The translations under genes and the position numbers were made by a program. Of a DNA stretch of 64,000 bases, positions 15,589 to 43,907 are shown in pieces. Source of the DNA: an uncultured Dysgonomonas sp. (lineage in GTDB: Bacteria > Bacteroidota > Bacteroidia > Bacteroidales > Dysgonomonadaceae); the NCBI RefSeq assembly GCF_900079725.1, contig NZ_LT599032.1:2440253-2504252 (forward strand), written 5' to 3'. The stretch's first letter is position 1; every line of letters starts with the position of its first letter. Below the pieces are notes generated by a model. The model had not been told where the DNA came from. It made no database searches and saw only the letters and a program-made list of their open reading frames with translations.

Positions 15589-15624
15589 AGTCCTTTATAA
15601 CCCCTCCTTATATAGATAACATTG
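15589..15624 (+). promoter_or_regulatory. Prophage 25-spaced promoter, copy 1
   Basis: AGTCCTTTA (15589-15597) is followed by ACATTG, whose TTG starts exactly 25 nt after the box. It lies directly after the stop of the upstream gene and before the capsid protease gene at 15642. It is the weakest member of the six. Confidence 0.55.
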
Positions 15625-15641
15625 CATAAAACTTCAATGCA

Positions 15642-16556
15642 ATGTTTGAATTCCTTTTACAAGAAATCTTGACGTCCAAGCTGTTGATGCACCATTCATC
15701 ACTCAATAGCTTGGAGATTCTTATTCAAAAATTAAGAGAACCGGAAAAAGCAGAAAAACCAGGGAAACAATTAACTCCGGTAAATCTCCTTCCTGGATTC
15801 AATATCAGTTGTGTAAAATATGCTACTCCCGGGGACATCTATATAGAGAAAGATCCATTCGCCGATCTGGATGAAAACTCTATTGCCATAATCCCTATCA
15901 TCGGCTCGATGTTCAAATATAGTTCTTGGTGGAACTATGGGATGGATGATATTGCAGATCTTATCAGGCTGGCAGATGCATCACCTAATATTATTGGAAC
16001 AATTCTTCTATGTAATACACCGGGAGGAACTTCTCAATCTATCATCCAACTGGAGGATGCCATGCGAAACCGGACAAAGCCCAGTGTCGGCCTGATTGAC
16101 GGTAACTGTTGCTCAGGCGGAATCTATGCGCTTTCATTTTGCGACAGATTAGCAGCCACTAACCCCATGTGTGTGATAGGAAATATCGGAGTTTACAATC
16201 AAATCGTAAATGATGACAAGTGGTTTGAAGAAAGGGGCGTGAAATTTATTTCAGTTTATCCCCCAGAATCGAAATATAAAAATCTTGCTTATACCGAAGC
16301 AAAAGATGGAAACCCCAAAATACTGATAGAAGAATCCCTTTCTCCTTTCGCCATCCACTTCCAGAACATAATCAAGCAAAACAGACCTAATCTGGATTTG
16401 TCAGTTGAAGGAATTATCGAAGGAAAAGACTTTTATGCCCAGGATGCTGAAAAGAACGGACTGATAGATACCATAACCAATCTGGAAGGTGCGGTCAACC
16501 TATTAAGAATTCTCCATACAGAAAAACAATCAATTTATTCACCTTTTAAAAAATAG
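15642..16556 (+). CDS. S49-family prohead protease
   Basis: 304 aa, SppA/ClpP fold. LLCNTPGGTSQSIIQLEDA (residues 125-143) precedes GNCCSGGIYALSF near 162, whose Ser is the probable nucleophile, and a later Lys-containing EERGVKFISVYPPESKYK. S49 peptidases act as prohead maturation proteases, and this gene is directly upstream of the capsid gene (3-bp gap). Phage promoter copy 1 lies in front. Confidence 0.85.
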   Translation: MFEFLLQEILTSKLLMHHSSLNSLEILIQKLREPEKAEKPGKQLTPVNLLPGFNISCVKYATPGDIYIEKDPFADLDENSIAIIPIIGSMFKYSSWWNYGMDDIADLIRLADASPNIIGTILLCNTPGGTSQSIIQLEDAMRNRTKPSVGLIDGNCCSGGIYALSFCDRLAATNPMCVIGNIGVYNQIVNDDKWFEERGVKFISVYPPESKYKNLAYTEAKDGNPKILIEESLSPFAIHFQNIIKQNRPNLDLSVEGIIEGKDFYAQDAEKNGLIDTITNLEGAVNLLRILHTEKQSIYSPFKK

Positions 16557-16559
16557 AAA

Positions 16560-18548
16560 ATGAAAAAAAAATGGCAAAAGCGATTGATGTCCTTAGTTAG
16601 CAAACTAGGATTCGGTGAAAAGATGAAAGCCGGCTCTTTGACAGCTGACGAACAAAAACAGCTTTTCACTGAGTACGAATCTACCTATGGCCTGACATTC
16701 GCTGCAGATAAAGAAGCAGACGAAGATGATGACGAAGAAAGCCAGAGTGTTCTCTCAGCTGAAGAACAAATGCAACTGGCTTCAATCTTCGGAGAAGACA
16801 AAGCTCCGAAGACAGCAAAAGAAGCAGTTCCTGCCCTAACAAAAAAAGTAAAGGAACAGAGGCAGACGATTGAAGACCTTGGTAAACAAACAGAAGACGA
16901 TACGCCATTAGAGAAAGTAAAGGCAGAGAAACCATCTACTCTGGTCATTGCTACTACTTTAGGATTGTCTGCACACTCTACTGCATACCTATTCGGAATT
17001 GAAAGTCCTACTTTCGCCCGGGCTAAGTGGTATAACAACCTGATGGTAGCCAGAAAAGCACACGAATCGGAAGCCGATATCACTCCGGAACAAAGTGTTG
17101 AATTCAAAGAAGCTGTAACGGCACTTTCTACAGAGTTGAGAAATCGTGTCGATTATCTGAACCAGAATAATATGCTGGATCTTCTCGATTTTGAGAAGCT
17201 AGTATCTGGCCAGGGATCAATCGATTATTCCGACTTATTTGGCCAGGCTGGGGAATATATCGTTCGCCGTACTGACATAATCCTGGCTTATTTGCGGTCA
17301 CTCCCGAGTGTGGATCATATCTTCCCGATGGTCTCCAATGTGCAAAACAAGGAAATTGTTCCGGGAGCTCACTTCGGGGAGCTATCCCAGGGATACCGTA
17401 AAGGCAAGATATATAAGGGCCGGGCAAACTTTACTGCTGAAATTTATGCAGTAAACGATCTGATGTTCAAATTTTTATTTGAAGACCTGATCGACTTGGA
17501 GAAACAATATATTGGATATCTGAACCGTGAAGGCTCTAACGTTATCAAGTGGACATTCATTGAATGGATCATGGTTCACTTCGGACAGATTCTACATAAT
17601 GAACGTAACCAGCGCCGTGTAATCGGCGTACGTGTTCCACAACAAAATGTAAAAGACAATCCTGCCATGTTTGGGGCAGATGGTATCCTGAGAGCAGTGG
17701 AAAGAGTGGAAGAACAATACAAGGTACTTCCGTTTCTGGACATGAAAACATATGATAACAGTACAATACTCGATTATTTCGAAGAAATATACGATCGGGT
17801 TGAACAGATACTGCCATCGATGGAAGGAATGAGTTTCTATGCAAATGGAAAACACAAAAGAGCCTATACTCGTTTGTTCCGCGCCAAATATGGTAAAGAC
17901 AATGACTTCACAGGGGTAAAAGAAGGCCTGATCGATATCTCCCCGGAAAAAATCATCTGGGTCCCAAATATGAAGAATACCGACTACAAGGTAATTCTTA
18001 CATTCCCAGGTAATATGGAGAATTATGAGGATAAGCCGAACGAAATGGTAATGTTCTACTTTGAACGTGACTGGGAGTCTCTGGGCGTTATGTCTCGTTG
18101 GAAAGAAGGATCCGGACTCCGCCAGGCTGGAGTGAGATATAAAGACCTCGAGCTATTGAAGAAATCGAACTTCAAGCATCAGTATGTATTCACCAACTTC
18201 CCTGCAACAGATTTGGATCCGGACGTATCGAAGATTGATGGTAGTCTGAACACACTGTTCCTTACCGGTGAAAATACTGCAGCTGCAGTGATAACTGATA
18301 TTGAGAACTTCGAGCAAGACAGGGTGTACAAAATCGTGTGTGGCTCTTTGAACAATGCTACTAAAGTCAACAAAACTGGCAAATTTGCAAAAATACAATC
18401 TCAGTTTGTTCCGACCAAAGTAGGGGATTACATTAAAGTATATGCTGAACTGGAAGATTATCAGGAAACGACTGAAGATGGAGAAACCTACACTGCTACC
18501 CGTCCTACCGGAAACTTCTTGGAGCTTGAACGTAAAGTTTCAGCTTAA
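16560..18548 (+). CDS. Major capsid protein with N-terminal scaffold region
   Basis: 662 aa. Residues 1-125 are charged and helical (AEEQMQLASIFGED; KEQRQTIEDLGKQ), like a scaffolding or delta domain removed by the protease encoded just upstream. The central part (DIILAYLRSLPSVDHIFPMV to KEGSGLRQAGVRYKDLELL) is the capsid core. The last about 95 residues form a separate domain (NTAAAVITDIENF, then NNATKVNKTGKFAKIQ) that resembles the C-terminus of the protein encoded at 18607. Role: capsid shell, with the extra domain probably on the surface. Confidence 0.8.
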   Translation: MKKKWQKRLMSLVSKLGFGEKMKAGSLTADEQKQLFTEYESTYGLTFAADKEADEDDDEESQSVLSAEEQMQLASIFGEDKAPKTAKEAVPALTKKVKEQRQTIEDLGKQTEDDTPLEKVKAEKPSTLVIATTLGLSAHSTAYLFGIESPTFARAKWYNNLMVARKAHESEADITPEQSVEFKEAVTALSTELRNRVDYLNQNNMLDLLDFEKLVSGQGSIDYSDLFGQAGEYIVRRTDIILAYLRSLPSVDHIFPMVSNVQNKEIVPGAHFGELSQGYRKGKIYKGRANFTAEIYAVNDLMFKFLFEDLIDLEKQYIGYLNREGSNVIKWTFIEWIMVHFGQILHNERNQRRVIGVRVPQQNVKDNPAMFGADGILRAVERVEEQYKVLPFLDMKTYDNSTILDYFEEIYDRVEQILPSMEGMSFYANGKHKRAYTRLFRAKYGKDNDFTGVKEGLIDISPEKIIWVPNMKNTDYKVILTFPGNMENYEDKPNEMVMFYFERDWESLGVMSRWKEGSGLRQAGVRYKDLELLKKSNFKHQYVFTNFPATDLDPDVSKIDGSLNTLFLTGENTAAAVITDIENFEQDRVYKIVCGSLNNATKVNKTGKFAKIQSQFVPTKVGDYIKVYAELEDYQETTEDGETYTATRPTGNFLELERKVSA

Positions 18549-18555
18549 ATTTATA

Positions 18556-18575
18556 CCGGAGCTTCAGAGCTCCGG
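18556..18575 (+). terminator. Hairpin after the capsid gene
   Basis: Perfect 8-bp inverted repeat CCGGAGCT / AGCTCCGG with a TCAG loop, 8 bp after the capsid stop. There is no T-run, so it may stabilise the capsid mRNA or attenuate rather than fully terminate. Confidence 0.5.
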
Positions 18576-18606
18576 ATATTACTATCTCTTAATAGAATAA
18601 ATAAAT

Positions 18607-19416
18607 ATGATATTAAATAATCTAGAAAAAACAGGGGATAAAAATTCTCAATTGCATACCATGAGATACAGGATTTACCTGGCTCTTATGACAGATGTAG
18701 ACATATTGAATTTCCCCCAGGCAATCCGAGGCGCAATTCTTTCGAATGTCCTGAAGCCCGGTGCATTCTTTAAGTTTTTGGATGCAAAAGCGCAATCTAT
18801 AAAACCGAATGCGGAACCCGGAGAATCTCCATTTAATGGTAAGATTGTTCTTAATCCTATTATCGAGGGTATTTCAGAGGAAACCTTGCAATGGATATAT
18901 GACAATGTTGGTTTAGATTTTCTCGTAGTTTGGGAACGTTGTTCTGATGGCCAACGATTCATTGCAGGAGATCCATGCTCCGGCGGCTTAAAACTCTCTT
19001 ATACCTCAATAGGTGAACTTGAAGGAGGTCTGGCCGGTATAGCTACAGCATTAACAGGTGGTGAATGTCCAAATCCATTCTGGTTTTACAAAGGGCCGCT
19101 TCCCCTTGAACCTCCGACATATGTGCCTGCAGATGCAACAACATTTGCGTTAACCGAGAAATCACAATATCAATTGACGGATAATACTGCAGCAAAAGTA
19201 TTGACTGATATCAGTGGTGTGTCTGATTCAGATGTAGGGCGAGTTATAGAAATACTCGGAGCCGGATCCACAAATGCAACTAAAATAAGTCCTTCAGCTA
19301 AATTTATTTTGCAGAAGGGGATTGATTTTGTTGCAACTTCAAGTAACCGGATCAGCTTCTATATAAGCAAAATCGGTTCGTCCGGATATGCATTCTATGA
19401 GGTACACCGGGCTTAA
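18607..19416 (+). CDS. Tail-tube or head-decoration candidate
   Basis: 269 aa. The N-terminal about 170 residues are unfamiliar (KPGAFFKFLDAKAQ, NPIIEGISEETLQWIYDN). Residues about 185-269 (TDNTAAKVLTDISG, then STNATKISPSAKFILQKG, ISFYISKIGSSGYAF) resemble the capsid C-terminal domain. Position after the capsid and before the chaperone-like pair suggests a major tail protein with an Ig-like add-on domain, but a decoration protein is also possible. Confidence 0.5.
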   Translation: MILNNLEKTGDKNSQLHTMRYRIYLALMTDVDILNFPQAIRGAILSNVLKPGAFFKFLDAKAQSIKPNAEPGESPFNGKIVLNPIIEGISEETLQWIYDNVGLDFLVVWERCSDGQRFIAGDPCSGGLKLSYTSIGELEGGLAGIATALTGGECPNPFWFYKGPLPLEPPTYVPADATTFALTEKSQYQLTDNTAAKVLTDISGVSDSDVGRVIEILGAGSTNATKISPSAKFILQKGIDFVATSSNRISFYISKIGSSGYAFYEVHRA

Positions 19417-19433
19417 CCAATGTATTCACATAT

Positions 19434-19457
19434 AAAAGCCACGATTATGTGGCTTTT
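19434..19457 (+). terminator. Rho-independent terminator
   Basis: AAAAGCCAC / GTGGCTTTT stem followed by ATTTTTAAT, 17 bp after the stop of the gene at 18607. Confidence 0.75.
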
Positions 19458-19475
19458 ATTTTTAATATTTGAAAT

Positions 19476-20593: not shown

Positions 20594-20594
20594 T

Positions 20595-20894: not shown

Positions 20895-21229
20895 ATATAT
20901 ATTTTTTCAAATTCTCTCAAATTTACCCTTTTTCATTCTAAAACCCTCTAATTTTAAGAAAATGATATTCTTTTCATATCTAAAATACTGATTTTCAAAC
21001 AAAGTTACAGTTTAACTTTTTGAAAATAAAAATTAGTATGCACGCGCTGCCCGTGCCGCTGTGTTGGCGGCTTGTAATGCAAAAAAGGGCAAAAAAAGGG
21101 TTATATGACGCAATATGTTAAATATCACGCGTTTAAATGTTAAAAATAGCGGAAAATTTGCATTTTTCGATACTTAAAATCGGATATCTCAAAAAGCATC
21201 GGATTGAATCCTAAAACACCTCGATTGGT
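20895..21229. other. Gene-free region before the ParB-methyltransferase gene
   Basis: 335 bp without a supported gene. It holds a G+C-rich patch with hairpin GCCGC (21055-21059) / GCGGC (21067-21071), several AAAAGGG-type purine runs, and A+T-rich flanks. No terminator for the antisense gene or known RNA family is evident. Confidence 0.4.
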
Positions 21230-21265
21230 TGTCCTTTATTCCCCCCCTCCCCTCGAATAGCTTTG
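21230..21265 (+). promoter_or_regulatory. Prophage 25-spaced promoter, copy 2
   Basis: TGTCCTTTA at 21230-21238; TAGCTTTG with its TTG at 21263, 25 nt after the box. A pyrimidine-rich spacer (CCCCCCCTCCCC) lies between. Start codon of the next gene is at 21290. Confidence 0.75.
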
Positions 21266-21289
21266 TAATACATCATAAAATAAAGCTAA

Positions 21290-22711
21290 ATGAATCAATT
21301 GAAATGGACAACTGAAAGACGAAGGGTGAGAGATCTCATCCCTTCGGACTACAATCCCAGGCTGAAGGATGAGAAGGGGCAGACAGTTCTGGAGGAAAGC
21401 ATGGATGCGTTCGGCCTGGTAGACACACCGGTCATCAATCAGGACAATGCTCTTATATCGGGCCATCGCAGGCTGGAGTATTACATAGAGCGTAACCGGA
21501 TAGATGAAGAAATAGACGTTCGTGTTCCGTCCCGGATGCTGACTGAGGATGAAGTCAAGCGATACATGCTACTAGCCAATACGCATGCAGGCAAGTGGGA
21601 TCTTGTGAAGCTGGAGGAAGAGTTCGGGGATATCTACAAAGATATTATGGTCAATGAGCTGCCATCGATAGAGGACACAGCTCTCCCATCAGCTGAACAG
21701 GTAACCCGGAGTAAGGATGCAGAACGTGAAATCATAGAGGACGAGTTCAACGATCTGCCACCGAAGAATCCCATCACTCAGGTAGATGACCTCTATGAGC
21801 TGGGAGTACACAGGCTTATCTGTGGAGACAGTACCGATATGAATGTAATAGGCCGTTTAATGGCCGGACTACTCGCACATATGGTATTCACCGATCCACC
21901 ATATAACTTGGCTCCGGAACAGTTTTCCGGTTTCGGAAAGAATGAGGCCCAGACATTCGCAATGGGTGTCGGTGAAATGTCGGAGGAACAGTTTATTGAA
22001 TTTCTGAAAAAAAGCTTCTTGGTCTTGATCCGGCACTCCGTTAAGGGTTCTATTCACTATGTATGCATGGACTGGAAGCATGTACTCGAGATCAGAGCTG
22101 CAGGAAAGGTCTATTCGGAATATAAGAATATGATAGTCTGGAATAAGACAAATGGCGGGATGGGTAGCTTCTACCGATCCAAACATGAGCTGGTCTTCAT
22201 GTTCCAAAACAAAGAGGTCCTACCTGAAGAAATACTCGATGCCAGGATAACCGATATCGAGCAAACAGGCTACGAATCGCATCACGAACTGATTTTCGTG
22301 TTTAAGAGTGGGCGTGAACGCAATGTAAACAACTTCATGTTAGGTCAAACAGGTCGATACCGGACAAATGTCTGGGATTATCCCGGTGCGAGTTCATTCA
22401 ATAAGACTGCAGACGTTAGTACCAAGGATCACCCTACTCCAAAGCCCGTAAAACTCGTAGCGGATGCAATAATGGATTGCAGCCTGATCGGACACATCAT
22501 ACTCGACATATTCTCCGGATCCGGAACAACTATCATCGCAGCTGACCAGACTGAACGTATTGCATATGTCGCAGATCTCGATCCGGGATATTGTGACCTG
22601 AACGTTCGAAGATATATCCGCTATTGCCGGAATGCAGGTAAACCATGTGTAGTGAAAAAGAACGGTGTAGTATTAACCAAAGAACAACTAAAGGAATATG
22701 AATTACAATAG
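21290..22711 (+). CDS. ParB-nuclease domain fused to DNA methyltransferase
   Basis: 473 aa. The N-terminal ParB/Srx-like domain has DYNPRLK near residue 18 and ISGHRRLEYY near 55. The C-terminal methyltransferase has motif IV DPPYNL near residue 203 and motif I DIFSGSGTT near 402; this order (IV before I) is the beta class of amino-methyltransferases. TKDHPTPKPVKL precedes motif I. Such fusions are common in prophages and likely modify phage DNA to escape restriction. A phage promoter (copy 2) sits in front; the stop overlaps the next gene. Confidence 0.88.
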   Translation: MNQLKWTTERRRVRDLIPSDYNPRLKDEKGQTVLEESMDAFGLVDTPVINQDNALISGHRRLEYYIERNRIDEEIDVRVPSRMLTEDEVKRYMLLANTHAGKWDLVKLEEEFGDIYKDIMVNELPSIEDTALPSAEQVTRSKDAEREIIEDEFNDLPPKNPITQVDDLYELGVHRLICGDSTDMNVIGRLMAGLLAHMVFTDPPYNLAPEQFSGFGKNEAQTFAMGVGEMSEEQFIEFLKKSFLVLIRHSVKGSIHYVCMDWKHVLEIRAAGKVYSEYKNMIVWNKTNGGMGSFYRSKHELVFMFQNKEVLPEEILDARITDIEQTGYESHHELIFVFKSGRERNVNNFMLGQTGRYRTNVWDYPGASSFNKTADVSTKDHPTPKPVKLVADAIMDCSLIGHIILDIFSGSGTTIIAADQTERIAYVADLDPGYCDLNVRRYIRYCRNAGKPCVVKKNGVVLTKEQLKEYELQ

Positions 22712-23834: not shown

Positions 23835-23870
23835 TGTCCTTTACCAGCCCGCAAATGCGGGCTTTTTTTG
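23835..23870 (+). promoter_or_regulatory. Prophage 25-spaced promoter, copy 3, with internal terminator
   Basis: TGTCCTTTA at 23835-23843 and TTG at 23868 (25 nt). The spacer contains hairpin GCCCGC (23847-23852) / GCGGGC (23857-23862) followed by seven T, so the same bases can stop transcription of the Abi-alpha gene and start that of the terminase genes. Confidence 0.75.
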
Positions 23871-23891
23871 TATCTATAAATTCAGATACAT

Positions 23892-24521
23892 ATGCTACAA
23901 CACTTACAACAATTACCTATTGAAATAGTCCAGGGATACCTGGACAGCAGAAATGCCAAAGCAGCCGGAATAAAGCCGGCTCTAGCGGCCTATATTCTGC
24001 AAATAAACGATGCGTATAACCTCAGTAAGAAATACCGGAATGTAAGTGAATGCGCAAAACAACTCCAGCTTCTTCATCCGGAACTGGAATCTTTATCGGT
24101 TGCCAAAAGCCGTGTGTATGACGCAATAGAGTTCTTTAATGCTGATTGTACAGTAACAGCTCCGGCCTGGAACAGCTACTATGCTGATATGATGAAAAAC
24201 CTGGCCGATGTGAATCTTGTAGCCCAAGACCTGAAAGAAGCCAGGAGATGCCTCGAACGTGCCCGGGAATATGACCTCGCAGCATCAGCTAACAGGATAG
24301 ATCCACGACGTATCCAGTTCAAACATCAGTTAGTCTCTCCGGACGTTCAGCTTGCTCGTATGGGTGTGACTCCTGTCGGGGTTCTCCGTGCATGGGAGGA
24401 AGCCAAAGCCATTATTAAGAGCCGGGATATCTCCCAAGGCGAGCAAAAACGCTTATTAACCGAAACCGGACGAGAACTGGATACTTTAAAATATACAGAT
24501 TATGAAGAAGTCGAAGGTTAA
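23892..24521 (+). CDS. Terminase small subunit candidate
   Basis: 209 aa, helical. An HTH-like stretch is ISLSKKYRN-type (NDAYNLSKKYRNVSECAKQL, residues 36-55) and a long coiled helix follows (LKEARRCLERAREYDLAASA). It overlaps the large terminase gene by 20 bp, the usual place of the small subunit, which recognises phage DNA. Family not recognised by sequence. Confidence 0.6.
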   Translation: MLQHLQQLPIEIVQGYLDSRNAKAAGIKPALAAYILQINDAYNLSKKYRNVSECAKQLQLLHPELESLSVAKSRVYDAIEFFNADCTVTAPAWNSYYADMMKNLADVNLVAQDLKEARRCLERAREYDLAASANRIDPRRIQFKHQLVSPDVQLARMGVTPVGVLRAWEEAKAIIKSRDISQGEQKRLLTETGRELDTLKYTDYEEVEG

Positions 24522-27892: not shown

Positions 27893-30226
27893 ATGAAAAA
27901 AATACAGTTGATAGTAATCCTATTCTTCACTTTTAGCTTGTTTTTGTCAGCACAAACAAATTATTTTTATAATGGGGATGGGAAAAAAATAGTTTTGAAA
28001 CTACGGAATGATTTATTGTTTTTGGAGAAGAACAATGCAAATTCACAAACTCGGCTTAACCAAAAAGTAGTGCATAATTTTGAAAAGTATATCATTGTAG
28101 AAAATATTGATTCTAAATTACAAAAAACAATATCAGATGAAAACCTAATGTTTGAGGCTGAAGATGGAACATTACAAGCATTGTCTAATACCGTTTTGAT
28201 GAAACCTAGTGAAACTCCCATAAGAATTGTATTGAATAAACTTAATTTAACAAATTCTGTAGTTAAGTTGGATTCCATATATGATATGTACATCATTGAA
28301 TTCAACACAACTAAAACAATGGATATAGCCAATAAAATATGGGATAGTGGTCTTGTCTCTTTTGCCGAGCCTTCATTTTACAAAATAATCAAATTACAGA
28401 ACCCCCTTTATTCTTTGCAGTGGGGATTTAGAAATACTGGACAAACAGGAGGCACAATAGGAATAGACGTAAATGTAGAACCAGCTTGGAATTTAACAAG
28501 GGGTAATTCTAATATAAAAGTTGCAGTTTTAGATGAAGGAGTCAGACTTGACCATCCTGATCTTCAGGGAAATCTATTATCTGGCTATGATGCGACAGGC
28601 AATAATAGTAATGGAGCACCAAATCAATCAGACTATCATGGAACCGCATGTGCAGGTATTATTGCTGCTGTAGATAATAATATAGGGGTTGTAGGAATTG
28701 CTCCTAATTGTAAAATGATTCCGGTTCGAATAGCTTATAAAGGTTCAGATGGAAGATCTTGGATAACGCAGGATTCTTGGATAACGCAAGGAATAAATTA
28801 TGCATGGAACACAGCTAAAGCAGATGTCCTGAGTAATTCATGGGGAGGGGGATCAAATTCAACAGCTATCAACAATACTATACTGAACGCTATGTCTCTA
28901 GGAAGAAATGGGCTAGGGGCAGTCGTTATTTTTGCATCGGGAAATGACTCTGCTCCAACAGTTTCTTATCCAGCTTCTTTAGCCGACGTAATTGCAGTAG
29001 GAGCACTTACTCCTACTGGACTGCGTGCAGATTTTTCTAACTATGGAGATGCATTAGATGTGGTAGCTCCAGGTGCTCATATTCCAACAACGACTATTAA
29101 TGGCTATACAGAATCTTTTGGCGGGACATCGGCTGCATGCCCCCATGTAGCTGGTATTGCGGCATTAATATTATCTATAAATCCGGAACTGACATCGCGA
29201 GAGGTGCGTAATACTATAGAGTCAACATGTAGAAAAGTCGGAGACTATTCTTATTCTGTCAATAAAATGAATGGCACTTGGAATAATGAAATGGGCTTTG
29301 GTCTTGTAGATGCTTATGCCGCTGTAAGAAGAGCTCTTGGCTACAAAGAAATTGTCAGTCCCAATGACCTATACCGCAGAAGTAAATTCTGGTTCAAACT
29401 CAAGGATGGCTCCAATGCCACATGGAGTTGTACTAACATTCCTGGTATAACAATCAATTCATCAACAGGTTTATTGAATAACACGAACTTTGATTACACA
29501 GGGAACATTACTATAACAGCTGCGACGTCAACCATAGCATATACTAAAGTTATATATATAAGTCCAGAGTATATAGATGGTAAATTCATATTTAATAATA
29601 CGACAAAGACCTTCTCCGAAATACATTCGGGTTATCCTTTGTATGAAAATGGATTTGATTTGAATGCAGGTTCTACAGCTGTTTCGAATTTGGCAATTGA
29701 AATCACTTATCCCGGATTGGCTATTATCGAGGGTAAAACACCTGTTTATAGCTGGGTAAACTATTCAATGACTCCGCGTTTCACAATCGAAAATAATGGT
29801 TCCAGAATTAAATTTTCACGTCTTATGGTCGATGAATCTGCCGAGATAGGATTAGAGATCGAAACAGGAAAAGGAACTATATCACAAATGTTTTATCTTA
29901 ATACAGGACGTTTTTCTCCAATCCTCTATCCATTCAGCTCTTATAGACTTTCACCACTTGAAGTTAAATTGACAGACAACACTATTACAGTTTCAGAAAG
30001 TACAGGACAGGAAAGAGGTATATCTTATACTAATCTAGCAGATAATAATTCTTATGTATATGAGATATTGGATATATTGGGAACATATAAAATGCAAAAA
30101 GGAAATTTCAAATTATATATTGGTGGCAGTAAAGATATAGATATATCAACTTTACCCAAAGGTTTCTATGCTTTAACTATCTACAAAAATGGAGAAAGAG
30201 TTCATTCAGGGAAATTTAAAAAGTAG
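27893..30226 (+). CDS. Secreted subtilisin-like (S8) protease with T9SS C-terminal domain
   Basis: 777 aa. Signal peptide (residues 1-21, LFLSAQT); prodomain-like region to about 165. The S8 triad is visible: Asp in VAVLDEGVRLDHPDL near 211, His in YHGTACAGIIAA near 251, Ser in FGGTSAACPHVAGIAAL near 412. Beta-rich middle domains follow. The last 80 residues (YVYEILDILGTYKMQKG, then DISTLPKGFYALTIYKNG) match type IX secretion sorting domains. It would be exported to the host surface or medium. Complete triad, so likely active. It is unrelated to phage assembly. Confidence 0.88.
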   Translation: MKKIQLIVILFFTFSLFLSAQTNYFYNGDGKKIVLKLRNDLLFLEKNNANSQTRLNQKVVHNFEKYIIVENIDSKLQKTISDENLMFEAEDGTLQALSNTVLMKPSETPIRIVLNKLNLTNSVVKLDSIYDMYIIEFNTTKTMDIANKIWDSGLVSFAEPSFYKIIKLQNPLYSLQWGFRNTGQTGGTIGIDVNVEPAWNLTRGNSNIKVAVLDEGVRLDHPDLQGNLLSGYDATGNNSNGAPNQSDYHGTACAGIIAAVDNNIGVVGIAPNCKMIPVRIAYKGSDGRSWITQDSWITQGINYAWNTAKADVLSNSWGGGSNSTAINNTILNAMSLGRNGLGAVVIFASGNDSAPTVSYPASLADVIAVGALTPTGLRADFSNYGDALDVVAPGAHIPTTTINGYTESFGGTSAACPHVAGIAALILSINPELTSREVRNTIESTCRKVGDYSYSVNKMNGTWNNEMGFGLVDAYAAVRRALGYKEIVSPNDLYRRSKFWFKLKDGSNATWSCTNIPGITINSSTGLLNNTNFDYTGNITITAATSTIAYTKVIYISPEYIDGKFIFNNTTKTFSEIHSGYPLYENGFDLNAGSTAVSNLAIEITYPGLAIIEGKTPVYSWVNYSMTPRFTIENNGSRIKFSRLMVDESAEIGLEIETGKGTISQMFYLNTGRFSPILYPFSSYRLSPLEVKLTDNTITVSESTGQERGISYTNLADNNSYVYEILDILGTYKMQKGNFKLYIGGSKDIDISTLPKGFYALTIYKNGERVHSGKFKK

Positions 30227-31046: not shown

Positions 31047-31120
31047 CCCCGGCGAAAGCCGAGATTATAAATTGAAGTTAATTTTATGGTGCGAAGCCCT
31101 GCAGTAATGTGGGGCTTTTT

Positions 31121-31156
31121 TGTCCTTTAACGCCTTATTTGGTTAGGCTTCTTTTG
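31121..31156 (+). promoter_or_regulatory. Prophage 25-spaced promoter, copy 4
   Basis: TGTCCTTTA at 31121-31129, TTG at 31154 (25 nt). The box follows immediately on a terminator hairpin AAGCCC (31094-31099) / GGGCTT (31112-31117) with a T-run, so the upstream stop and this start abut. ATG of the next gene is at 31161, leaving almost no leader. Confidence 0.75.
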
Positions 31157-31160: not shown

Positions 31161-31475
31161 ATGGAATTGAAAACAATCACCGGGTGTGAAGCCATTGACC
31201 TGATGCGCAAAACGAAACTTATTCCGGGTGCTACATTCGGAATCAGATTTATAACCTGCGACCTGAATCGTATGGAGTACGGCCATATCCGTGTATACGA
31301 GGAATGCCTGGTGCGATCGGCCAGACGAAACGAGGGCCTTGCTGTGGATCCGGATCATTATTTATTTTTCACCGATACATCTACGGACGAACCAAGGCAA
31401 TGCTTCAAGAAACTCATCCGTGCCGTTTGTTTTCCTCCATCAAATCAATGGCTAACAGTTAAATGGTTCACATGA
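31161..31475 (+). CDS. Small conserved-type phage protein, unknown
   Basis: 104 aa with GATFGIRFITCDLNRMEYG, DPDHYLFFTD and a C-terminal FPPSNQWLTVKWF. It overlaps the portal gene. I do not recognise a function; the position suggests a head-completion or portal accessory. Confidence 0.6.
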   Translation: MELKTITGCEAIDLMRKTKLIPGATFGIRFITCDLNRMEYGHIRVYEECLVRSARRNEGLAVDPDHYLFFTDTSTDEPRQCFKKLIRAVCFPPSNQWLTVKWFT

Positions 31476-35948: not shown

Positions 35949-35984
35949 TGTCCTTTAGAAGCTCGCTTTGGCGGGCTTCTTTTG
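35949..35984 (+). promoter_or_regulatory. Prophage 25-spaced promoter, copy 5, with internal terminator
   Basis: TGTCCTTTA at 35949-35957 and TTG at 35982 (25 nt). The spacer is a hairpin GAAGCTCGC (35958-35966) / GCGGGCTTC (35971-35979) followed by four T: a terminator nested inside the promoter, as at copy 3. Confidence 0.75.
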
Positions 35985-36005
35985 TATCATCAGATTATAA
36001 TCGCT

Positions 36006-36440: not shown

Positions 36441-36442
36441 AT

Positions 36443-39400
36443 ATGGCTAAATTAAAAGATGATCATATAAAGTGGATTCTGGAACTGGATGCCAAAGGTG
36501 TTCAGGCCGAAATATCAACTTTATCTTCCCTCAGTAAAGAGTTGGAAGCCGATAATAAACGCCTCCAGGCCGAATACGCTGCTGCCGCAAAACAGATGAA
36601 GGAAACCCGGAAAGAACTGGAGCGCCTGACGAAAGCCGGCAAAGAAGATTCGGAAGAATTTAAAGAGTTAGAGGCCACTCTCGAGTCTGTATCATCCGAT
36701 ATGACTGACTATAAACGAAAGATGGTCGAGAACACCAAAGCCATTGAACAAAACAGAAAGACTGTAGAAGAAATGGTCAAAACTCTTCGTATCGAAGATA
36801 TGACTATGGATCAGTTGAAAAAACGAGCCAAAGAACTACAAACCCAATTAGATAAAACAGCCGAAGCCACACATCCCGAACAATACAACGCCCTGGATAA
36901 AGAACTGAAAGCTGTTAAAAGCCGGATGAGCGAACTCGACTCCGGATCAAAATCCATGTTCTCTGTATTCAAAGGAGGCCTCATGGTCCTGGCCGGTAAT
37001 CTGATGACCAAGGCTATAGATAAAGTAGGTGAATTGATATCTACAGGGTTAGAATGGGTGAAGGTAGGAATGGATATGGCCAAAAGCTCGGAGGGTACAA
37101 TTGCTTTCTTTAAAGAATTAAGCGATAGCAAAAGGATACTGAAAGAAGTAAAAGAAGCTACGGACGGAACCATCAGCAGCCTCGATATAATGAAAAAAAC
37201 TATACGGGCCAAAGAGATGGGTATCCCGATCGAAGATATGGCTAATCTGATGAAGTATGCCAGGATACAGGCTCAGAAGCTAGGTAAGGATATGGATTAT
37301 ATGTCAAATTCCATCGTAGACGGTATCGGTCGGAAATCGACGCTGGTACTCGATAACCTTGGTATATCTGCAACCAAAGTACAGGCTGAAGTAAAGAAGT
37401 CCGGAGATTTTACTCAAGGCGTTCTGAAGATCGTAAACGAAGAACTGGAAAAACAAGGTACTATTGCTCTGACCGGAGCCGACAAAGCTGCCATAGCTGC
37501 AGCGAAATGGGAAGATGCCCAGCTCAAGATCGGACAAAAGGCAAAATGGCTTAGTGAACTCTGGGATAAAGTATCCGGAAATATTGCCGATAAGATATCC
37601 GGGCTTATAGGAGATACACGTTCTCTCTCCGAACAGTACAAGGATCAGGTAGAAAAAGTGGCAGATCTGGAGATAAATTCGGTTACTCTGGCCAAACGTT
37701 ATGATGAACTGAAATCGAAATCCAGTTTAACTAAAGATGAGTCAGCCGAACTGAACCGGATCATGAATACATTATCCCAGACAATCCCCGGAGTGGTCAC
37801 TGAATGGGATAAATATGGAAATATTCTATCCATCAACACTCAGAAAGTATATGATTTTATAGACGCAGAAAAGGCCAAACTTAAATACATGCACCGGGAT
37901 ACGATCAAGCAGGCTGGAAAAGATATTGAGGACTATACCGAAAAGTTAGAGAAGGTGAAGGCAAAATATAGCAAAGGCTTCTGGGAAGAAACAATTACCA
38001 ATAGATCAACCGGTGGGGATAGCTATACTATAAAACACATATATACTCCCGAACAGATGGCACAGTTCGAAAAAGAGATTCTCGAATATGGACAAATGGT
38101 AAAAGGAGCTGAAGAAACAGTAAATGAACTAACCGGAAAATCGATAGAGGACCAGATTAATCAGCAAAAAAATCTCATTGCAGCCCGGAGTAAGTTTACT
38201 GCGATGAATAAAAAGGAACTGGATACCTGGATCAAGGATGAGAAGAACGCTGCAAACGAATATCTGCAAATAGCTAAACAGATATACGATCAACGGTTCG
38301 GTACGAATCCGGACAAAGATCCTAAGACGCCAAAAGGGGATCCGGAACTACAACGTCAAAAGAAAGCATTGAATGCTATGCTGGAGACACTGGAGACAAG
38401 CCATCAGACAAAGATGGCCGATATCCGCAAAAAATATCTGGATGGCGAAATTAAATCAGAATCTGACTTCAACCGGAAGAAATTCTCCCAGGAACAGGCA
38501 TATTATATTCTTCAGGAAGAATCCCTCAAACGGCATCTGGATAAAGTTACCAAGACCGAAGTCCGCGAAGATATCCTGAATAAGATTGCCGCAATACAGA
38601 ACAAACGACTGGAACAGCAAATTAATTATCAGGCCAAACTGGAACAAATTATTCTGAATGCCAACCCGGAAGAAAAAGAGAAGCAAGAGTATGCTAACCG
38701 GCTTCATGACCTTGGCATATTCGGCAAATCACGCCAGGAACTGCAGATGCTGCAAATGTCTGCGGAAACTGAAGAAGAAAAGAACCTCCTGCAGAAAAAG
38801 ATCGACGCACTCGAGATACTGGAAAAGCAACATCAGGATAATCTGTTCAATATCCGGCAGCAGGCTAAGAGCAAAGAAAAGGCCCGATCAGAGGAAGATT
38901 TTGAAAATAGTTTCAAAGCCCGGAAAGATGAAATGCAGCTGGAGCTGAATGACCTGATGTCACAAGCCCAAACACTGCGAGGTGGGGAGTCTTTTGATGC
39001 TGAAATGGCTGTGCATATGCAACGGCTTCAAATGATCAATGAAGAAATACAGGCCCGGAAGAATGCCGGTCTTGAAACAAGTAAGCAAATAGCTCAGATA
39101 GGCAGAGTCGAAGCCCAGATGACAGCTACAATAAAAAAAGAAAACGATAAGCGGGTATCAGTATACAATCAATATGCTAATACACTTGGTACTGCATTCG
39201 GTAATTTCTTTGCCGGTCAGACATCTGCACTTGAAGCATTCGGCGGTGCAGTGGTTGACATACTATTCGATACACTTGGTAAAATAGTAGAAACAAAAAT
39301 AATGGAGGCTACTGCCGTAGCTGTTGCAGAACAGGCTAAGGCTGCTGCTATTGCAGCTGCATCCCCGGACAGTGTGATGTCATTTGGTGCCACATCGGCC

Positions 39401-39964
39401 ATTCGTATTGCTGCCATTGGAGCAATAATCACCGGTGCATTGGTTGCTGCCAAGACCGCTCTGAAAGGTATGATAAGCAAGAAGAAAGGTAATTCCTCCG
39501 GCTCTTCATCATCAGAAACTACTACCAGCAGAAGGGTTGTCTCCGGTTATGCCGATGGCGGATATCACGAAGGCTATACAGGCCCGGGAGATAAATACGA
39601 TGTGAAAGGTTACTTCCCCGATGGAGAACCATACCATGCTGGAGAATATATCATCCCTCAGGAAAAACTTAGAATACCCCGGGTTGTGCGGATGGTGCGT
39701 GAAATAGAATCAATCCCATCATCGGGAGGCAATAAGAATCCATTGCCTGAAGGATTTGCCGATGGCGGGTATCATGGAGATACATCCGGAGAATCGTATC
39801 AATCCCCGAACTTCTCGGAATTAAACCTCTCCATCAAAGAACTCAATGCGCTAATTGCTTTTTGGAAAGCCAATGGTGGCATACCGGCAATTATAAATAT
39901 TTACGACCTGGCTAAGTCTCAGGATATTGTTGACGATTTCGGAAACTTTGGAAAAAAAGTATAA
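36443..39964 (+). CDS. Tape measure protein
   Basis: 1173 aa. Long coiled coils at residues 15-170 (Lys/Glu-rich) and 620-900, a hydrophobic region near 180-200 (GLMVLAGNLMTKAIDKVGEL) and an Ala/Ile-rich segment near 955-1015 typical of membrane-inserting tape measures. Near the end, ADGGYH occurs twice with YHAGEYIIPQEKL between. It sets tail length and may guide DNA entry. Confidence 0.85.
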   Translation: MAKLKDDHIKWILELDAKGVQAEISTLSSLSKELEADNKRLQAEYAAAAKQMKETRKELERLTKAGKEDSEEFKELEATLESVSSDMTDYKRKMVENTKAIEQNRKTVEEMVKTLRIEDMTMDQLKKRAKELQTQLDKTAEATHPEQYNALDKELKAVKSRMSELDSGSKSMFSVFKGGLMVLAGNLMTKAIDKVGELISTGLEWVKVGMDMAKSSEGTIAFFKELSDSKRILKEVKEATDGTISSLDIMKKTIRAKEMGIPIEDMANLMKYARIQAQKLGKDMDYMSNSIVDGIGRKSTLVLDNLGISATKVQAEVKKSGDFTQGVLKIVNEELEKQGTIALTGADKAAIAAAKWEDAQLKIGQKAKWLSELWDKVSGNIADKISGLIGDTRSLSEQYKDQVEKVADLEINSVTLAKRYDELKSKSSLTKDESAELNRIMNTLSQTIPGVVTEWDKYGNILSINTQKVYDFIDAEKAKLKYMHRDTIKQAGKDIEDYTEKLEKVKAKYSKGFWEETITNRSTGGDSYTIKHIYTPEQMAQFEKEILEYGQMVKGAEETVNELTGKSIEDQINQQKNLIAARSKFTAMNKKELDTWIKDEKNAANEYLQIAKQIYDQRFGTNPDKDPKTPKGDPELQRQKKALNAMLETLETSHQTKMADIRKKYLDGEIKSESDFNRKKFSQEQAYYILQEESLKRHLDKVTKTEVREDILNKIAAIQNKRLEQQINYQAKLEQIILNANPEEKEKQEYANRLHDLGIFGKSRQELQMLQMSAETEEEKNLLQKKIDALEILEKQHQDNLFNIRQQAKSKEKARSEEDFENSFKARKDEMQLELNDLMSQAQTLRGGESFDAEMAVHMQRLQMINEEIQARKNAGLETSKQIAQIGRVEAQMTATIKKENDKRVSVYNQYANTLGTAFGNFFAGQTSALEAFGGAVVDILFDTLGKIVETKIMEATAVAVAEQAKAAAIAAASPDSVMSFGATSAIRIAAIGAIITGALVAAKTALKGMISKKKGNSSGSSSSETTTSRRVVSGYADGGYHEGYTGPGDKYDVKGYFPDGEPYHAGEYIIPQEKLRIPRVVRMVREIESIPSSGGNKNPLPEGFADGGYHGDTSGESYQSPNFSELNLSIKELNALIAFWKANGGIPAIINIYDLAKSQDIVDDFGNFGKKV

Positions 39965-39967
39965 ACG

Positions 39968-41878
39968 ATGGATATAAAACTCAAAAACGGAGAAACACTC
40001 GATTTCAAACCGGACTTTAAATTAAGCCTGACATTGAATAATCCCATGCTGACAGAACAGGGATCGATGTCACTGCCGGTAGTACTGCCGGAGTCGAACC
40101 GCCGGAAGCTGGGCTTTCCTGACAGACTAGACCATGCCTACAAAATCAAACAGGTATTCAATACAGTGATCGGAGCAGGTTCTTATCAGAAACCGGCACT
40201 GCTCAGGACAACATCACATAATAAAGGCACTATAGGTGCATTTTACCTGAATGAGTCGGAAATGTACGCTAAGATGAAAGATGTAGACCTGTCGCAAGCA
40301 TTCAATATCATTCGTCCGGCCAGTGACTTCCATGTAGCCGGCACATTCGCCGAGACTCTCGATATGGTGATAAAATACATGGAGCTGGTGATGGTCGATA
40401 ATATTAAAGAAGATTTTCACCTGTTCCCTGTAGCGACAGATTACTATACGGAAACTGTTCATACGGGATTCGGAGACAAAGAATATACATTTTACCAGCT
40501 ACTTAACGAACAGATGTCGGGTCAAAACAGGAATGACAATTTAACCGATATTGATTTGAACGGAGAAGAATACTACATGTTGGCCGGACGTAACGCCCGG
40601 CAATATAATGAAGGTGGTAGCCTTGTGGATGTCCCAAAAGGCTATGGCATCACTCCGTTCCTGAAGCAGTCATATGTTTTGCATCGTATTTTCGAGTATT
40701 TCGGCTACCGTCTGGAAGAATCTATTTTCGATACCGATCCTGAATTTCAGAAAATGGTCCTTGTCAACAATACCGCCGACGCTATAGTTAGAGGTGAATT
40801 AAACTATGCCCAGCTGGTCCCTTCAGGTACAATCAAAGATTATCTCGATTCCGTCCGTACAGACTACGGTTGCGAGTTCTTTATTTCGCCGGATCACAAA
40901 TACGTTGAAGTAAAGTTCTGGAATGACCTTATAAAAAATAAGAAATTCATCCCGCTCGATAGCAAGGCTACAGGTAAAGAAATTCCTAACCTTGCCGAAC
41001 CCAAATTACTAAAGCTGACCGGGAACCGGTCTATCGAATATACTGATGTGAATTTCGATACGCAGGAAAAGTTTGAAAAAAACTACGGGCAACTCAAATA
41101 TGCTAAAGATACCATTTACCAGGGGCGTCCTGACTATCCGGCCGGTTATTATCTGATACAGTCTTTAGGTGATATTTACGAACGTTACCCTTATGTAAAT
41201 GACTCCGGCAATACAGTCCGGGGTTGGCGTTACCATTCCAAATACCTGTTCGATAGCTACGAAGAAAAAACGGATACAGACTATGAAGATAAAGCCGGCA
41301 AACGGGATTATATAGCCTCCGTCTCTGCATTTGTTCATTATACCGGCACACTTGTAGGCGTTAATATACCGGGCGAATACCACCGGATGCTATTTATCGG
41401 AAACCGCCGTCATCTGAACACTTTTGTAAAAAAATTACATACAGACGAAAACGGGAACCAGACAGTCGCGGACGAAAAAGAAGATACTGTCTCATGCCCC
41501 ATAATAACAGCGTTCTACAGAGGCAAGACTTCTCCTGCAGGACGGCCGAGACCAGTAATCTATGGTAATATAATGATGTATGATGATCAGGGAGAACCGC
41601 TCGAGGGTGGATTTAACCTTATTTTCGGTGGAGAAAATGGCTTATACAACAAGTTTTGGAAACTATATGCCGATGTTATCCGGCATTCATTCCTTCAGGT
41701 AGAGATCCCTTTGAAATTCGATATCCGGGATATACTTACTTTCAGGTTCGATAATATATACTTGTATAAAGGTCAACCATTGATACCCGAAAAACTGGAG
41801 TTTGAGATTGAAAAAGATAATAAGATAAAGGTTATTAGTGCATTATTTAGGACTATTCGGCTGTATTTAGATGAATAA
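39968..41878 (+). CDS. Distal tail / tail hub protein
   Basis: 636 aa, beta-rich. It begins MDIKLKNGETLDFKPDFKLS with LNNPMLTEQGSMSLPVVLPE, a layout seen in Bacteroidales phage tail proteins after the tape measure. It contains a duplicated-looking alternation of YxxGYY/YYMLAGRN strands and ends with FEIEKDNKIKVISALFRTIR. Role inferred from position and size. Confidence 0.6.
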   Translation: MDIKLKNGETLDFKPDFKLSLTLNNPMLTEQGSMSLPVVLPESNRRKLGFPDRLDHAYKIKQVFNTVIGAGSYQKPALLRTTSHNKGTIGAFYLNESEMYAKMKDVDLSQAFNIIRPASDFHVAGTFAETLDMVIKYMELVMVDNIKEDFHLFPVATDYYTETVHTGFGDKEYTFYQLLNEQMSGQNRNDNLTDIDLNGEEYYMLAGRNARQYNEGGSLVDVPKGYGITPFLKQSYVLHRIFEYFGYRLEESIFDTDPEFQKMVLVNNTADAIVRGELNYAQLVPSGTIKDYLDSVRTDYGCEFFISPDHKYVEVKFWNDLIKNKKFIPLDSKATGKEIPNLAEPKLLKLTGNRSIEYTDVNFDTQEKFEKNYGQLKYAKDTIYQGRPDYPAGYYLIQSLGDIYERYPYVNDSGNTVRGWRYHSKYLFDSYEEKTDTDYEDKAGKRDYIASVSAFVHYTGTLVGVNIPGEYHRMLFIGNRRHLNTFVKKLHTDENGNQTVADEKEDTVSCPIITAFYRGKTSPAGRPRPVIYGNIMMYDDQGEPLEGGFNLIFGGENGLYNKFWKLYADVIRHSFLQVEIPLKFDIRDILTFRFDNIYLYKGQPLIPEKLEFEIEKDNKIKVISALFRTIRLYLDE

Positions 41879-42044
41879 AACGGAAGATACTTATTTTATA
41901 TAACTAAGAAAAGTAAGTTTTTTGATTTTTTTCGTTAATTCGAATATTTTTTCACATCTTTGTAAAAGCATATAAGTTAACACTGCTTTAATGTCCTACT
42001 TTAGTTTCTAGCATTTTTATTAGTATTTCTAAAGAATTGATGTT

Positions 42045-42470
42045 ATGAAAAACGTTATTAAATCTATCGCCATTTTTATATTTTTTCTTTCCTGTAATGG
42101 AAATGAGAATTTTCCAATTGTTCACGAAGATTATTATGTAAAAGTTGAAGCTTTTTATAAGTTTAATAATTCAGATGAACTATATCCCGATGGCAGTTCG
42201 GATGTATTTGTTTATTATGGCATACAAAGTTTGGACATTGTAGGCTTTAATATTGATGAGAAAGGTAAATTAATAAAAGATAACAAAGAAATTTTGCCCA
42301 ATAAATATATCAAGACTAGCGCGGAAGGTAAATGTATGTTTATGTCAGACAATTTAGATGAACATGTTACTTTTATAATCGTAAGCCATCAATTTAAGGA
42401 ACTACTCGCAATAAACAGTTTTTATAATTCCAGAACTCAGATAGAAATAAAAAGCGTAGTAGCTAATTAA
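42045..42470 (+). CDS. Small lipoprotein, prophage cargo
   Basis: 141 aa. Signal with lipobox FFLSCN (Cys near residue 17). A+T-rich compared with the tail genes. A CATCTTTG box near 41957 could be its own promoter. First of three consecutive lipoproteins. No recognised domain; envelope location suggests lysogenic conversion or superinfection exclusion. Confidence 0.6.
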   Translation: MKNVIKSIAIFIFFLSCNGNENFPIVHEDYYVKVEAFYKFNNSDELYPDGSSDVFVYYGIQSLDIVGFNIDEKGKLIKDNKEILPNKYIKTSAEGKCMFMSDNLDEHVTFIIVSHQFKELLAINSFYNSRTQIEIKSVVAN

Positions 42471-42475
42471 CGAGT

Positions 42476-42943
42476 ATGATGAAAATATATTTTAAGACTT
42501 TTAGATATAAGAAAAGTATGTCAATTCTAGGAATTGCATCTTTGTTTTCATTAATATTTTTATTGATTGTAGTGTCCTGCAACAAGAATCAAAAAGGTAG
42601 TGCAGACAAATTGAAAGAACAGACTACAGATGCGACGGAATCAATCAATTCGGATTCGATAAATAGTGTTATCAGCGAAGACGAATTAGCTAATATATAT
42701 AAAGAATATCTTTACTTTGATAGGAATGTATTTGTGTTGAAGCTATCAGGAGATGAAGCTTCAAAAATAGGCATTTCTTCTTCCAAATATAAAGCTATTA
42801 TTTCTAGACTAAAAGAGATGAACTCGTTTTTAGAAAAAACGCTTAATGAACTGAAAGATGGAGAAACCCAAATTCTTCAAATCCCTAAAGAACGTATATT
42901 GGATACGTTAAACATTGATCCTAGAATTAGAATTACTGATTGA
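42476..42943 (+). CDS. Lipoprotein, paralog of the next gene
   Basis: 155 aa. Hydrophobic signal and lipobox LIVVSC (Cys near residue 35; an internal Met near 13 may be the true start). ISEDELANIYKEYLYFDRNV, FVLKLSGDEASKIGIS and LKEMNSFLEKTLNELKDGE are repeated almost unchanged in the next gene. 5-bp gap from the upstream gene. Confidence 0.6.
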   Translation: MMKIYFKTFRYKKSMSILGIASLFSLIFLLIVVSCNKNQKGSADKLKEQTTDATESINSDSINSVISEDELANIYKEYLYFDRNVFVLKLSGDEASKIGISSSKYKAIISRLKEMNSFLEKTLNELKDGETQILQIPKERILDTLNIDPRIRITD

Positions 42944-42998
42944 TGTAAAAGTAAGACGGTATTACCGCCAATTTATTTAACCATTAAGTAAGAATATT

Positions 42999-43694
42999 AT
43001 GAGAAAGATTAAAGTATTTTTCACACTATTACTAGTTGTGATTGGATTGCCATTTCTAGCTACTTGCCAAGGTACGATCGAAGATGAACCTGATAACATG
43101 ACTAAAACCAGCCTTTCAGAAGATGAACTAATGAGTATATATAAGGATTATGTATATTTTGATACGGATATATTTGTATTGAAACTGTCAAAAACAGACG
43201 CTTTAAAAAAAGGAGTTTCTCCAGATCAATACAATTCAATTATTATTAATTTAGAAGAAATGAACTCATTTCTTAAAGGACATCTTGAAGGCCTTAAGGA
43301 AGGTAAGATAGAAATCCTCACTTTTCCCGAGGAACGTGTATTGAATAAATCCAAAATTGATTCGAGAATAGTCCTGGATAAAAATTCAGAGTTTATATTA
43401 GATAGAACTACAAAGTCTACATATGAAGTACAAGCTCCCAATGGACAAATAAGCTATGGCTTTGCTCAAATGCCAGGTGGTGCGTATGCCTGTAAATTAG
43501 GCGGGTATACTAAATGTATGGGAGGAATCTACAAGGTCGGTTTCACTAGTACTTATGCAACTGTTGAAACAGGTGTACGGGTTGGTTTTTGGCCAGCGAA
43601 TCCTAAAGAATTTAATATTCATGCTCAATATGGATTCGCAGGAAAAGTTACTGTTTCCGGTACATGTGATTGTTGGGGGTGGGTCTCATGGTAG
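42999..43694 (+). CDS. Lipoprotein with extra C-terminal Cys/Gly/Trp domain
   Basis: 231 aa. Lipobox FLATCQ (Cys near 23). Residues 40-125 align with the preceding protein (LSEDELMSIYKDYVYFDTDI; LEEMNSFLKGHLEGLKEGK). Residues 145-231 are additional: YGFAQMPGGAYACKLGGYTK, FAGKVTVSGTCDCWGWVSW, with several Cys. Tandem duplication with domain gain or loss. Function unknown; surface exposure likely. Confidence 0.6.
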   Translation: MRKIKVFFTLLLVVIGLPFLATCQGTIEDEPDNMTKTSLSEDELMSIYKDYVYFDTDIFVLKLSKTDALKKGVSPDQYNSIIINLEEMNSFLKGHLEGLKEGKIEILTFPEERVLNKSKIDSRIVLDKNSEFILDRTTKSTYEVQAPNGQISYGFAQMPGGAYACKLGGYTKCMGGIYKVGFTSTYATVETGVRVGFWPANPKEFNIHAQYGFAGKVTVSGTCDCWGWVSW

Positions 43695-43840
43695 AATGAA
43701 AATCATTTAATATAATGATTTAAACAGCAAGAAAGATTTACTTGATAATCCGTTTTCGATAGTAGCCAGATGATATTTATACAAGCAACCAAATGACTTC
43801 AGATAAGCTGATAATATAAGAATGTACGGAACGGATTATA

Positions 43841-43871
43841 ACAGCCCTGCCTTATGGCGGGGCTGTTTTTT
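43841..43871 (+). terminator. Terminator before the lysis promoter
   Basis: ACAGCCCTGCC (43841-43851) / GGCGGGGCTGT (43856-43866) with a T-run; it runs straight into promoter copy 6. Confidence 0.85.
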
Positions 43872-43907
43872 TGTCCTTTACCTTCCTATCATAAAGCATG
43901 ACTTTTG
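43872..43907 (+). promoter_or_regulatory. Prophage 25-spaced promoter, copy 6 (lysis cassette)
   Basis: TGTCCTTTA at 43872-43880 and TTG at 43905 (25 nt). The TTG is not the holin start; ATG 43935 is 28 nt downstream. Confidence 0.75.

Follow-up and report, generated by a model that had tools for sequence, protein, structure and literature searches.

A fixed-spacing promoter-like element before the late operons of a Dysgonomonas prophage and a candidate phage activator

We studied a 64,000-nucleotide stretch of DNA from an uncultured Dysgonomonas sp. (RefSeq assembly GCF_900079725.1, contig NZ_LT599032.1, positions 2,440,253 to 2,504,252; hereafter the window), and in particular a short promoter-like element that recurs in the tailed prophage it carries. 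The prophage, inserted in tRNA-Phe, extends from about 14.43 to 61.0 kb. Its first gene (14621..15103, + strand) encodes a protein of 160 amino acids (aa) with an isoelectric point (pI) of 9.6, our candidate late activator, and a small middle gene (15219..15587, +) lies between this gene and the first copy of the element. Six copies of the composite [A/T]GTCCTTTA + 24 bases + TTG are found in this one 46.5-kb prophage, before late operons, and judged from the sequence they look like its late promoters. An earlier note on this DNA had listed six 9-mers, each placed 25 nucleotides before a TTG in an intergenic gap, and had read them as phage promoters served by one recognition system. We recovered the 9-mers at all six coordinates, AGTCCTTTA at 15589 and TGTCCTTTA at 21230, 23835, 31121, 35949, and 43872, in every case between genes and upstream of a late gene on the + strand. 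The spacing was also as described: at all six sites, 24 bases separate the motif from the TTG, which therefore starts on the 25th base.

Late promoter 1 (15589..15624, +) has AGTCCTTT at -40 to -33, the -7 box TAACATTG at 15617-15624, and a predicted +1 at 15629, and the head protease gene (15642-16556) lies downstream. A 10-bp hairpin (15618..15646, +) spans the start of this gene, with its left arm (15618-15627) upstream of +1 and its right arm (15637-15646) holding the ATG. Late promoter 2 (21230..21265, +; -7 box TAGCTTTG, predicted +1 at 21270) precedes a DNA methyltransferase/ParB-like gene (21290-22711), and a 9-bp hairpin (21258..21288, +; arms 21258-21266 and 21280-21288) ends directly before the ATG. 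Late promoter 3 (23835..23870, +; predicted +1 at 23875) precedes gene 23892-24521 and has a terminator hairpin (23846-23863) within its spacer. At late promoter 4 (31121..31156, +), a terminator hairpin (31094-31117) lies directly upstream of the motif, and the predicted +1, 31161, is the A of the ATG of gene 31161-31475, which is predicted to be leaderless. Late promoter 5 (35949..35984, +; predicted +1 at 35989), again with a terminator hairpin (35958-35979) in its spacer, is followed by a gene starting at ATG 36006 and then by the tape-measure gene (36443-39964). Late promoter 6 (43872..43907, +; predicted +1 at 43912) has a terminator (43840-43867) directly upstream of its motif and is followed by a gene starting at ATG 43935, with an 11-bp hairpin in the leader (43900..43926, +; arms 43900-43910 and 43916-43926), and by the endolysin gene (44146-44775). 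For the first genes after promoters 5 and 6, we relocated the start out of the TTG of the -7 box, from 35982 to ATG 36006 and from 43905 to ATG 43935. The start-codon hairpins, the terminators abutting promoters, the predicted leaderless starts, and an A/T difference at -40 were absent from the earlier note.

In the whole 5.2-Mb host genome, the composite pattern had seven matches, six of which were the prophage sites; with a single match in the rest of the genome, motif and spacing are not frequent in host DNA. No match arose in 60 simulations under a first-order Markov model of the prophage, versus the 6 observed. Two extra copies of TGTCCTTTA lacked the TTG, one outside the prophage at 2427 (+) and one inside it at 43274 (-). 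A second prophage at the seventh genomic match was considered and rejected, as L187/L188 gave just scattered matches. The near-absence of the element from the rest of the host genome, its fixed -33/-7 geometry, and its recurrence in related phages support the view that these are phage promoters with a single recognition system.

We then compared the element with host promoters. Passages of PMC7366714 give the Bacteroides consensus as a TTTG near -33 besides a TAnnTTTG -7 box, and in Flavobacterium TAnnTTTG is placed at -12 to -5 (in part of PMC9723704). Since the TTG ends a host-like -7 box, on the Flavobacterium scale the phage motif falls at -40 to -33, with the predicted +1 about 5 nucleotides past the TTG. 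In our defining (first) set of 55 sites from 22 phage loci, for which site selection did not use columns -12 and -11, these columns held T at 46 and A at 42 of the 55 sites, as expected of the host-type box. The TnTTTTG-like -7 box described before can be refined to a near-ordinary host TAnnTTTG, found in full at one of the six prophage sites (21230) and with five of its six fixed bases at the others. The host TTTG at -33 was not found, the TTT (fixed by selection) being followed by A at 32, T at 10, C at 10, and G at 3 of the 55 sites. The earlier proposal that the motif takes the place of the host -33 element holds as to its position, but not as a plain replacement: because its TTT coincides with the host -33, the phage element extends or overlaps this element. 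Compared with the sigma-ABfr/sigma-A promoters of Bacteroides and Flavobacterium, which share the TAnnTTTG -7 box and, in Bacteroides, have the -33 element (parts of PMC9723704 and PMC7366714), the phage element adds GTCC at -39 to -36, has TTTA/T/C/G for TTTG, keeps a fixed spacing, and is mostly phage restricted.

An ATG stood exactly at the predicted +1 at 6 of the 55 sites and at -1 at 2; five of these eight predicted leaderless cases are gene 31161 and its homologues in G415, G416, G417, and G017. In an annotated Porphyromonas phage record (L266), the predicted +1 at 28496 is the annotated coding sequence start of the neck gene. Bacteroidota are described, in passages of PMC7366714, as lacking Shine-Dalgarno sequences. 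Two departures from the geometry were seen. Three sites of the G209 locus (L219) have a spacer shortened by one base, as though the geometry of recognition had shifted, and this locus entered the defining set at that spacing. Two Porphyromonas gingivalis phages (L266 at 10670 and L268 at 10325) have AGTCCTTTA upstream of the prohead protease gene, with TATCTTCG/TACATTCG at the -7 position and no TTG-ending box; in L268, an 11-bp inverted repeat stands directly before the ATG.

A search of related Bacteroidales phages, which the earlier note had proposed, found the same element at the same spacing. Among 393 genomes of the order, 43 contained the pattern TGTCCTTTA-N19-TNNNTTTG, 37 of them once; the own genome and G308 had four matches each. 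Five relatives were located via a 662-aa late structural protein and two via the pattern, and a version of the promoter lay upstream of the head protease gene in 6/6 phages compared. Megablast of 16000-40000 against phages gave no match. A profile of the 160-aa protein detected 17 loci in 15 of the 393 genomes, the own included. Within 3.5 kb, 8 of the 17 had a promoter under the original [AT]GTCCTTT-N25-TTG and 15 under a widened pattern that admits C as the first base, T as the fifth base, and one spacing a base shorter; the two without were G316 and G332, the latter with 662 bases of DNA. The gene lies mostly 460 to 620 bases upstream of the first site. With a wider profile, matches came from 4 genomes among 395 at the level of the phylum and from 15 among 101 at the level of the family, the own genome counted in each, so that a spread beyond Bacteroidales is just hinted at.

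Two further sets of loci were assembled. The second comprised 19 loci chosen by the regulator profile, that is, by the 160-aa family; one contig, of G017, was already known for the motif. It yielded 31 matches at spacing 25 on the gene strand (two, in G017, known before), versus 0 to 1 at spacings 20 to 24 and 26 to 29, 5 at spacing 30, where a second TTG follows at a distance of five bases, and 2 on the reverse strand. Among the 16 loci where over 1 kb of DNA follows the gene, 11 had a site in the first 3.6 kb. The third set comprised 14 loci hand-picked, mostly by their short open frame and not as a random draw, among the phrog_53 (head protease) matches listed; this search also drew many proteins with open frames near 590 aa, which we take to be probably host proteases. 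A site was found at the protease in 13 of the 14, a regulator match (E < 1e-7, in a small set of open reading frames [ORFs]) in 13, and both in 12. There were 23 matches at spacing 25 (two of them already in the TGTCCTTTA-N19-TNNNTTTG search), 0 to 2 at other spacings, and none at 25 on the reverse strand. Overall, the first two sets comprise 41 regulator loci, motif-defining ones included, of which 31 had a site within 3.5 kb under the widened pattern; four of the ten others had less than 700 bases downstream. Removed before counting were G342, of the same phage type as G414, one G219_32 site with no ORF in reach, and one L312 site.

At the protease site of the window, the left arm of the hairpin, AACATTGCAT, lies entirely upstream of the predicted +1. 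The predicted accessibility of the start codon, located in the right arm, is 0.00 in a read-through RNA and 0.85 in the promoter's own RNA. To see how general this is, we paired positions -20 to -1 of each site with its own +1 to ATG+12 region and with permuted partners from other sites. Own pairs formed stronger duplexes in each case, with -8.12 versus -5.36 (n = 55), -8.90 versus -5.20 (n = 29), and -7.68 versus -5.28 in the third set (n = 22), a difference that none of 20,000 permutations reached in any of the three cases. Stretches of 9 or more complementary bp occurred at 29 of 84 sites, versus 5.3 expected by permutation. The duplex was stronger at first-operon sites (mean of -12.3, n = 18) than at the others (-6.1, n = 37; p = 1e-5). 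At first-operon sites, the median predicted accessibility of the start codon was 0.07 in read-through and 0.65 in own RNA (n = 29), compared to 0.46 and 0.56 at other leadered sites (n = 47) and 0.50 and 0.60 in 202 control genes; in the third set, it was 0.18 and 0.58 (n = 13). In relatives, the letters of the arms vary while the pairing is kept (CAC/GTG in G416, AACG/CGTT in G868), and in 22 hairpins several positions showed at least two different Watson-Crick pairs, a count favored by the choice of the register with maximal pairing.

In the first set, a scan for a hairpin plus T-run with a cut-off of -9 kcal/mol (our own choice) picked out terminators at 21 of 37 later sites, often directly upstream of the motif or within the spacer, compared to 2 of 18 first sites (p = 0.0014). 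The first late operon tends to be shielded by a hairpin and the later ones by a terminator. The two classes also differ in the base at -40, which was A at 20 of 29 first-operon sites and at none of the 55 others in the first two sets, and at 7 of 13 first sites and none of 10 others in the third. This A may possibly set the order or strength of the promoters.

We next considered what could read the element. The earlier note had suggested a phage activator or a modified sigma factor; we found no evidence for the latter and propose the 160-aa product of 14621-15103 for the former. A homologue was present in 8/8 motif-bearing phages, diverged in G417 and truncated in G415. The family is mostly basic, with a median pI of 9.26 and 27 of 41 members above 9, compared to a median of 5.9 for 36 ORFs in the middle position. 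Profile scans of Pfam, PHROGs, and the PDB gave no significant match for the family, nor did NCBIfam for the window's member, and tblastn of one divergent regulator against phages gave no match. Of 37 loci compared, 32 had a middle gene of the same cluster; G074 had no gene there. A GTCTTTT variant of the motif was confined to one clade of eight rows and one further row of a 30-row regulator tree, requiring 2 changes versus 7.9 in shuffles (0/500 as low); the tree omits G415 and the loci without a site label, and has long branches. This pattern also fits plain phage ancestry. The 160-aa family seems to us the best candidate activator, and its members are presumed to bind DNA.

Taken together, these data point to an activator-dependent late regulon with insulation against read-through, served by host RNA polymerase and a phage activator, a reading to which we assign a probability of about 0.72. 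As the geometry suggests, host RNA polymerase with its primary sigma factor would read the -7 box, while the activator, most likely the 160-aa protein, would read [A/T]GTCC(TTT) at -40 to -33 and replace or strengthen the -33 contact, so that the late operons would be switched on together. At the first late operon, as at some others, the bases immediately before +1, which the promoter's own RNA does not include, are complementary to the region around the start codon. RNA reading through from upstream would fold the AUG into a hairpin, whereas RNA starting at +1, lacking most or all of the left arm, would be translatable. Later operons would more often be insulated by a terminator-like hairpin abutting or inside the promoter, and some would be leaderless. 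More tentatively, at somewhat below even odds, we propose that this is a new family of phage activators that captures the Bacteroidota primary sigma factor at GTCC-TTT, replacing the -33 contact, and drives a late regulon insulated by a start-codon hairpin at the first operon and by terminators next to later promoters, in which an A at -40 sets many of the first promoters apart from all later ones.

Several observations weigh against this reading. Despite adequate DNA, six regulator loci lack an exact site in the vicinity (G316, G838a, G866, G868_155, G596, and G417); a candidate site with one mismatch exists in G417, G838a, G596, and G316 and in neither G866 nor G868_155. Likewise, L308 has regulator and protease and no site, and L307 a site and no regulator match. 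Synteny links the regulator gene to both the protease and the small middle gene, so that co-occurrence does not single out the regulator, and a single locus, G074, separates it from the middle gene. As to the hairpins, 31121 and 35949 have no clear one, the own partner was the best of all at 9 of 55 sites, and plain folds of 32 sites gave z of at most -1.5 in 14 and above zero in 15. No gain in accessibility was predicted at 2 of 29 first sites (G209 and G840) and at 3 of 13 in the third set (L303, L304, and L306). At later sites, the duplex was equally strong with and without a terminator (-6.0 versus -6.2), indicating that the two insulators are not strictly alternative. Finally, many loci are related, and the permutation and Fisher figures therefore overstate independence.

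The same promoters could be read by another phage activator, encoded by an early-region gene or acting as an RNA polymerase-binding factor, with 14621-15103 a mere syntenic neighbor, for example a packaging or head-assembly protein. We regard this as unlikely, if worth serious attention. Regulator, middle gene, and protease do travel as a group, and the sole PHROGs match of the window protein is to a virion structural family, at a nonsignificant E of 0.14. However, the family is usually basic, as noted above, its gene is placed directly before the first late promoter, and it is retained in G074 despite the missing middle gene. Moreover, among the early genes right of 50.8 kb, tblastn found none with a homologue in every relative, although their early regions are possibly partly missing from the records.

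It seems improbable that the sites are ordinary host-type promoters in which the motif is a strong -33 variant with an upstream extension and a phage factor is unneeded. The -7 box and the spacing do resemble the host consensus and the TTT of the motif is at -33, but the full element is nearly absent elsewhere in the host genome, though its GTC was fixed by the search pattern, and one variant base segregates with a regulator clade, which ancestry of the phages alone could also produce. About equally doubtful is another role for the inverted repeats, as stability hairpins at the 5' end of the mature mRNA or as operator palindromes in DNA. The palindromes overlap the -7 box at many sites; against such a role, the left arms of the long hairpins lie mostly upstream of the predicted +1, hence outside the promoter's own RNA, the arm sequences vary from site to site, and in G006 the left arm is in the spacer with the -7 box in the loop. 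For these differences between arms and the G006 geometry, a palindromic operator was rejected as the principal explanation.

In layout, the putative late promoters resemble the middle promoters of phage T4. According to passages of PMC2988021, T4 middle promoters carry a MotA box, (a/t)3TGCTTtA, centered at -30 and depend on sigma appropriation by AsiA/MotA. In both systems, many dispersed promoters, read by host RNA polymerase, would combine a phage-specific box in the -35/-30 region with a host-type downstream box (PMC2988021, in part). Here, in contrast, the element lies at -40 to -33, the host belongs to the Bacteroidota, and the controlled genes look late. In profile scans against Pfam and the PDB, the candidate had no match to MotA; no search was aimed at AsiA in particular.

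The hairpins recall T4 gene e (and soc, 49, and I-TevI), where, as described in part of PMC3014915, the start site is sequestered in a helix of long transcripts that begin upstream; in the case of gene e, transcripts of the late promoter are devoid of the 5' portion of this structure. By analogy, the predicted read-through RNA would hide the start codon here and promoter RNA would be free of the blocking arm. Our folding predictions are consistent with such a lock at first-operon sites, and not at many later sites. In contrast to gene e, the arrangement is predicted from sequence, recurs across one promoter class, and is strongest at the first late operon. To our knowledge, a translation lock of this type is known mainly from T4.

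A literature search on late-gene switch-on in Bacteroidales tailed phages, on the motif string, and on Bacteroides phage late promoters found nothing relevant, and the words "promoter" and "transcription" are absent from the main text of a Porphyromonas gingivalis phage paper. The present analysis yields a consensus that is short and testable, together with a named candidate activator and a putative translation lock. With this consensus, late operons could be annotated from sequence across many Bacteroidales prophages; should the activator be confirmed, the consensus would also provide an orthogonal promoter for Bacteroidota genetics.

The remaining features of the window concern the borders and the early region of the prophage. 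attL (14431..14485), the 3' part of tRNA-Phe, is a 55-nucleotide direct repeat, 98% identical to attR (60950..61004), which lies within the tRNA-Phe gene at 60958-61031 (-). Adjoining the tRNA-Phe/attR is an ORF of 429 aa (59526..60815, -), a putative integrase judging from its sequence features. Several repeat copies around TTGAACGAAGTT lie beside it at 58299-59498 and are perhaps arm-type or replication sites. Between 53503 and 57603, a 29-nucleotide repeat that contains the palindrome CCGCAAAATTGCGG or a near variant of it is present in six copies, most of which sit at junctions between early-region genes; two matches to this palindrome were also found in the related G017 phage, and the repeat may be a conserved element of the early genes, acting as RNA or as an operator. 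Just outside attL, a phage-type integrase gene (13350-14246, -) and a gene for a DUF6642 protein (12958-13353, -) adjoin a KAP NTPase gene (10900-12804), which suggests another mobile element beside the prophage.

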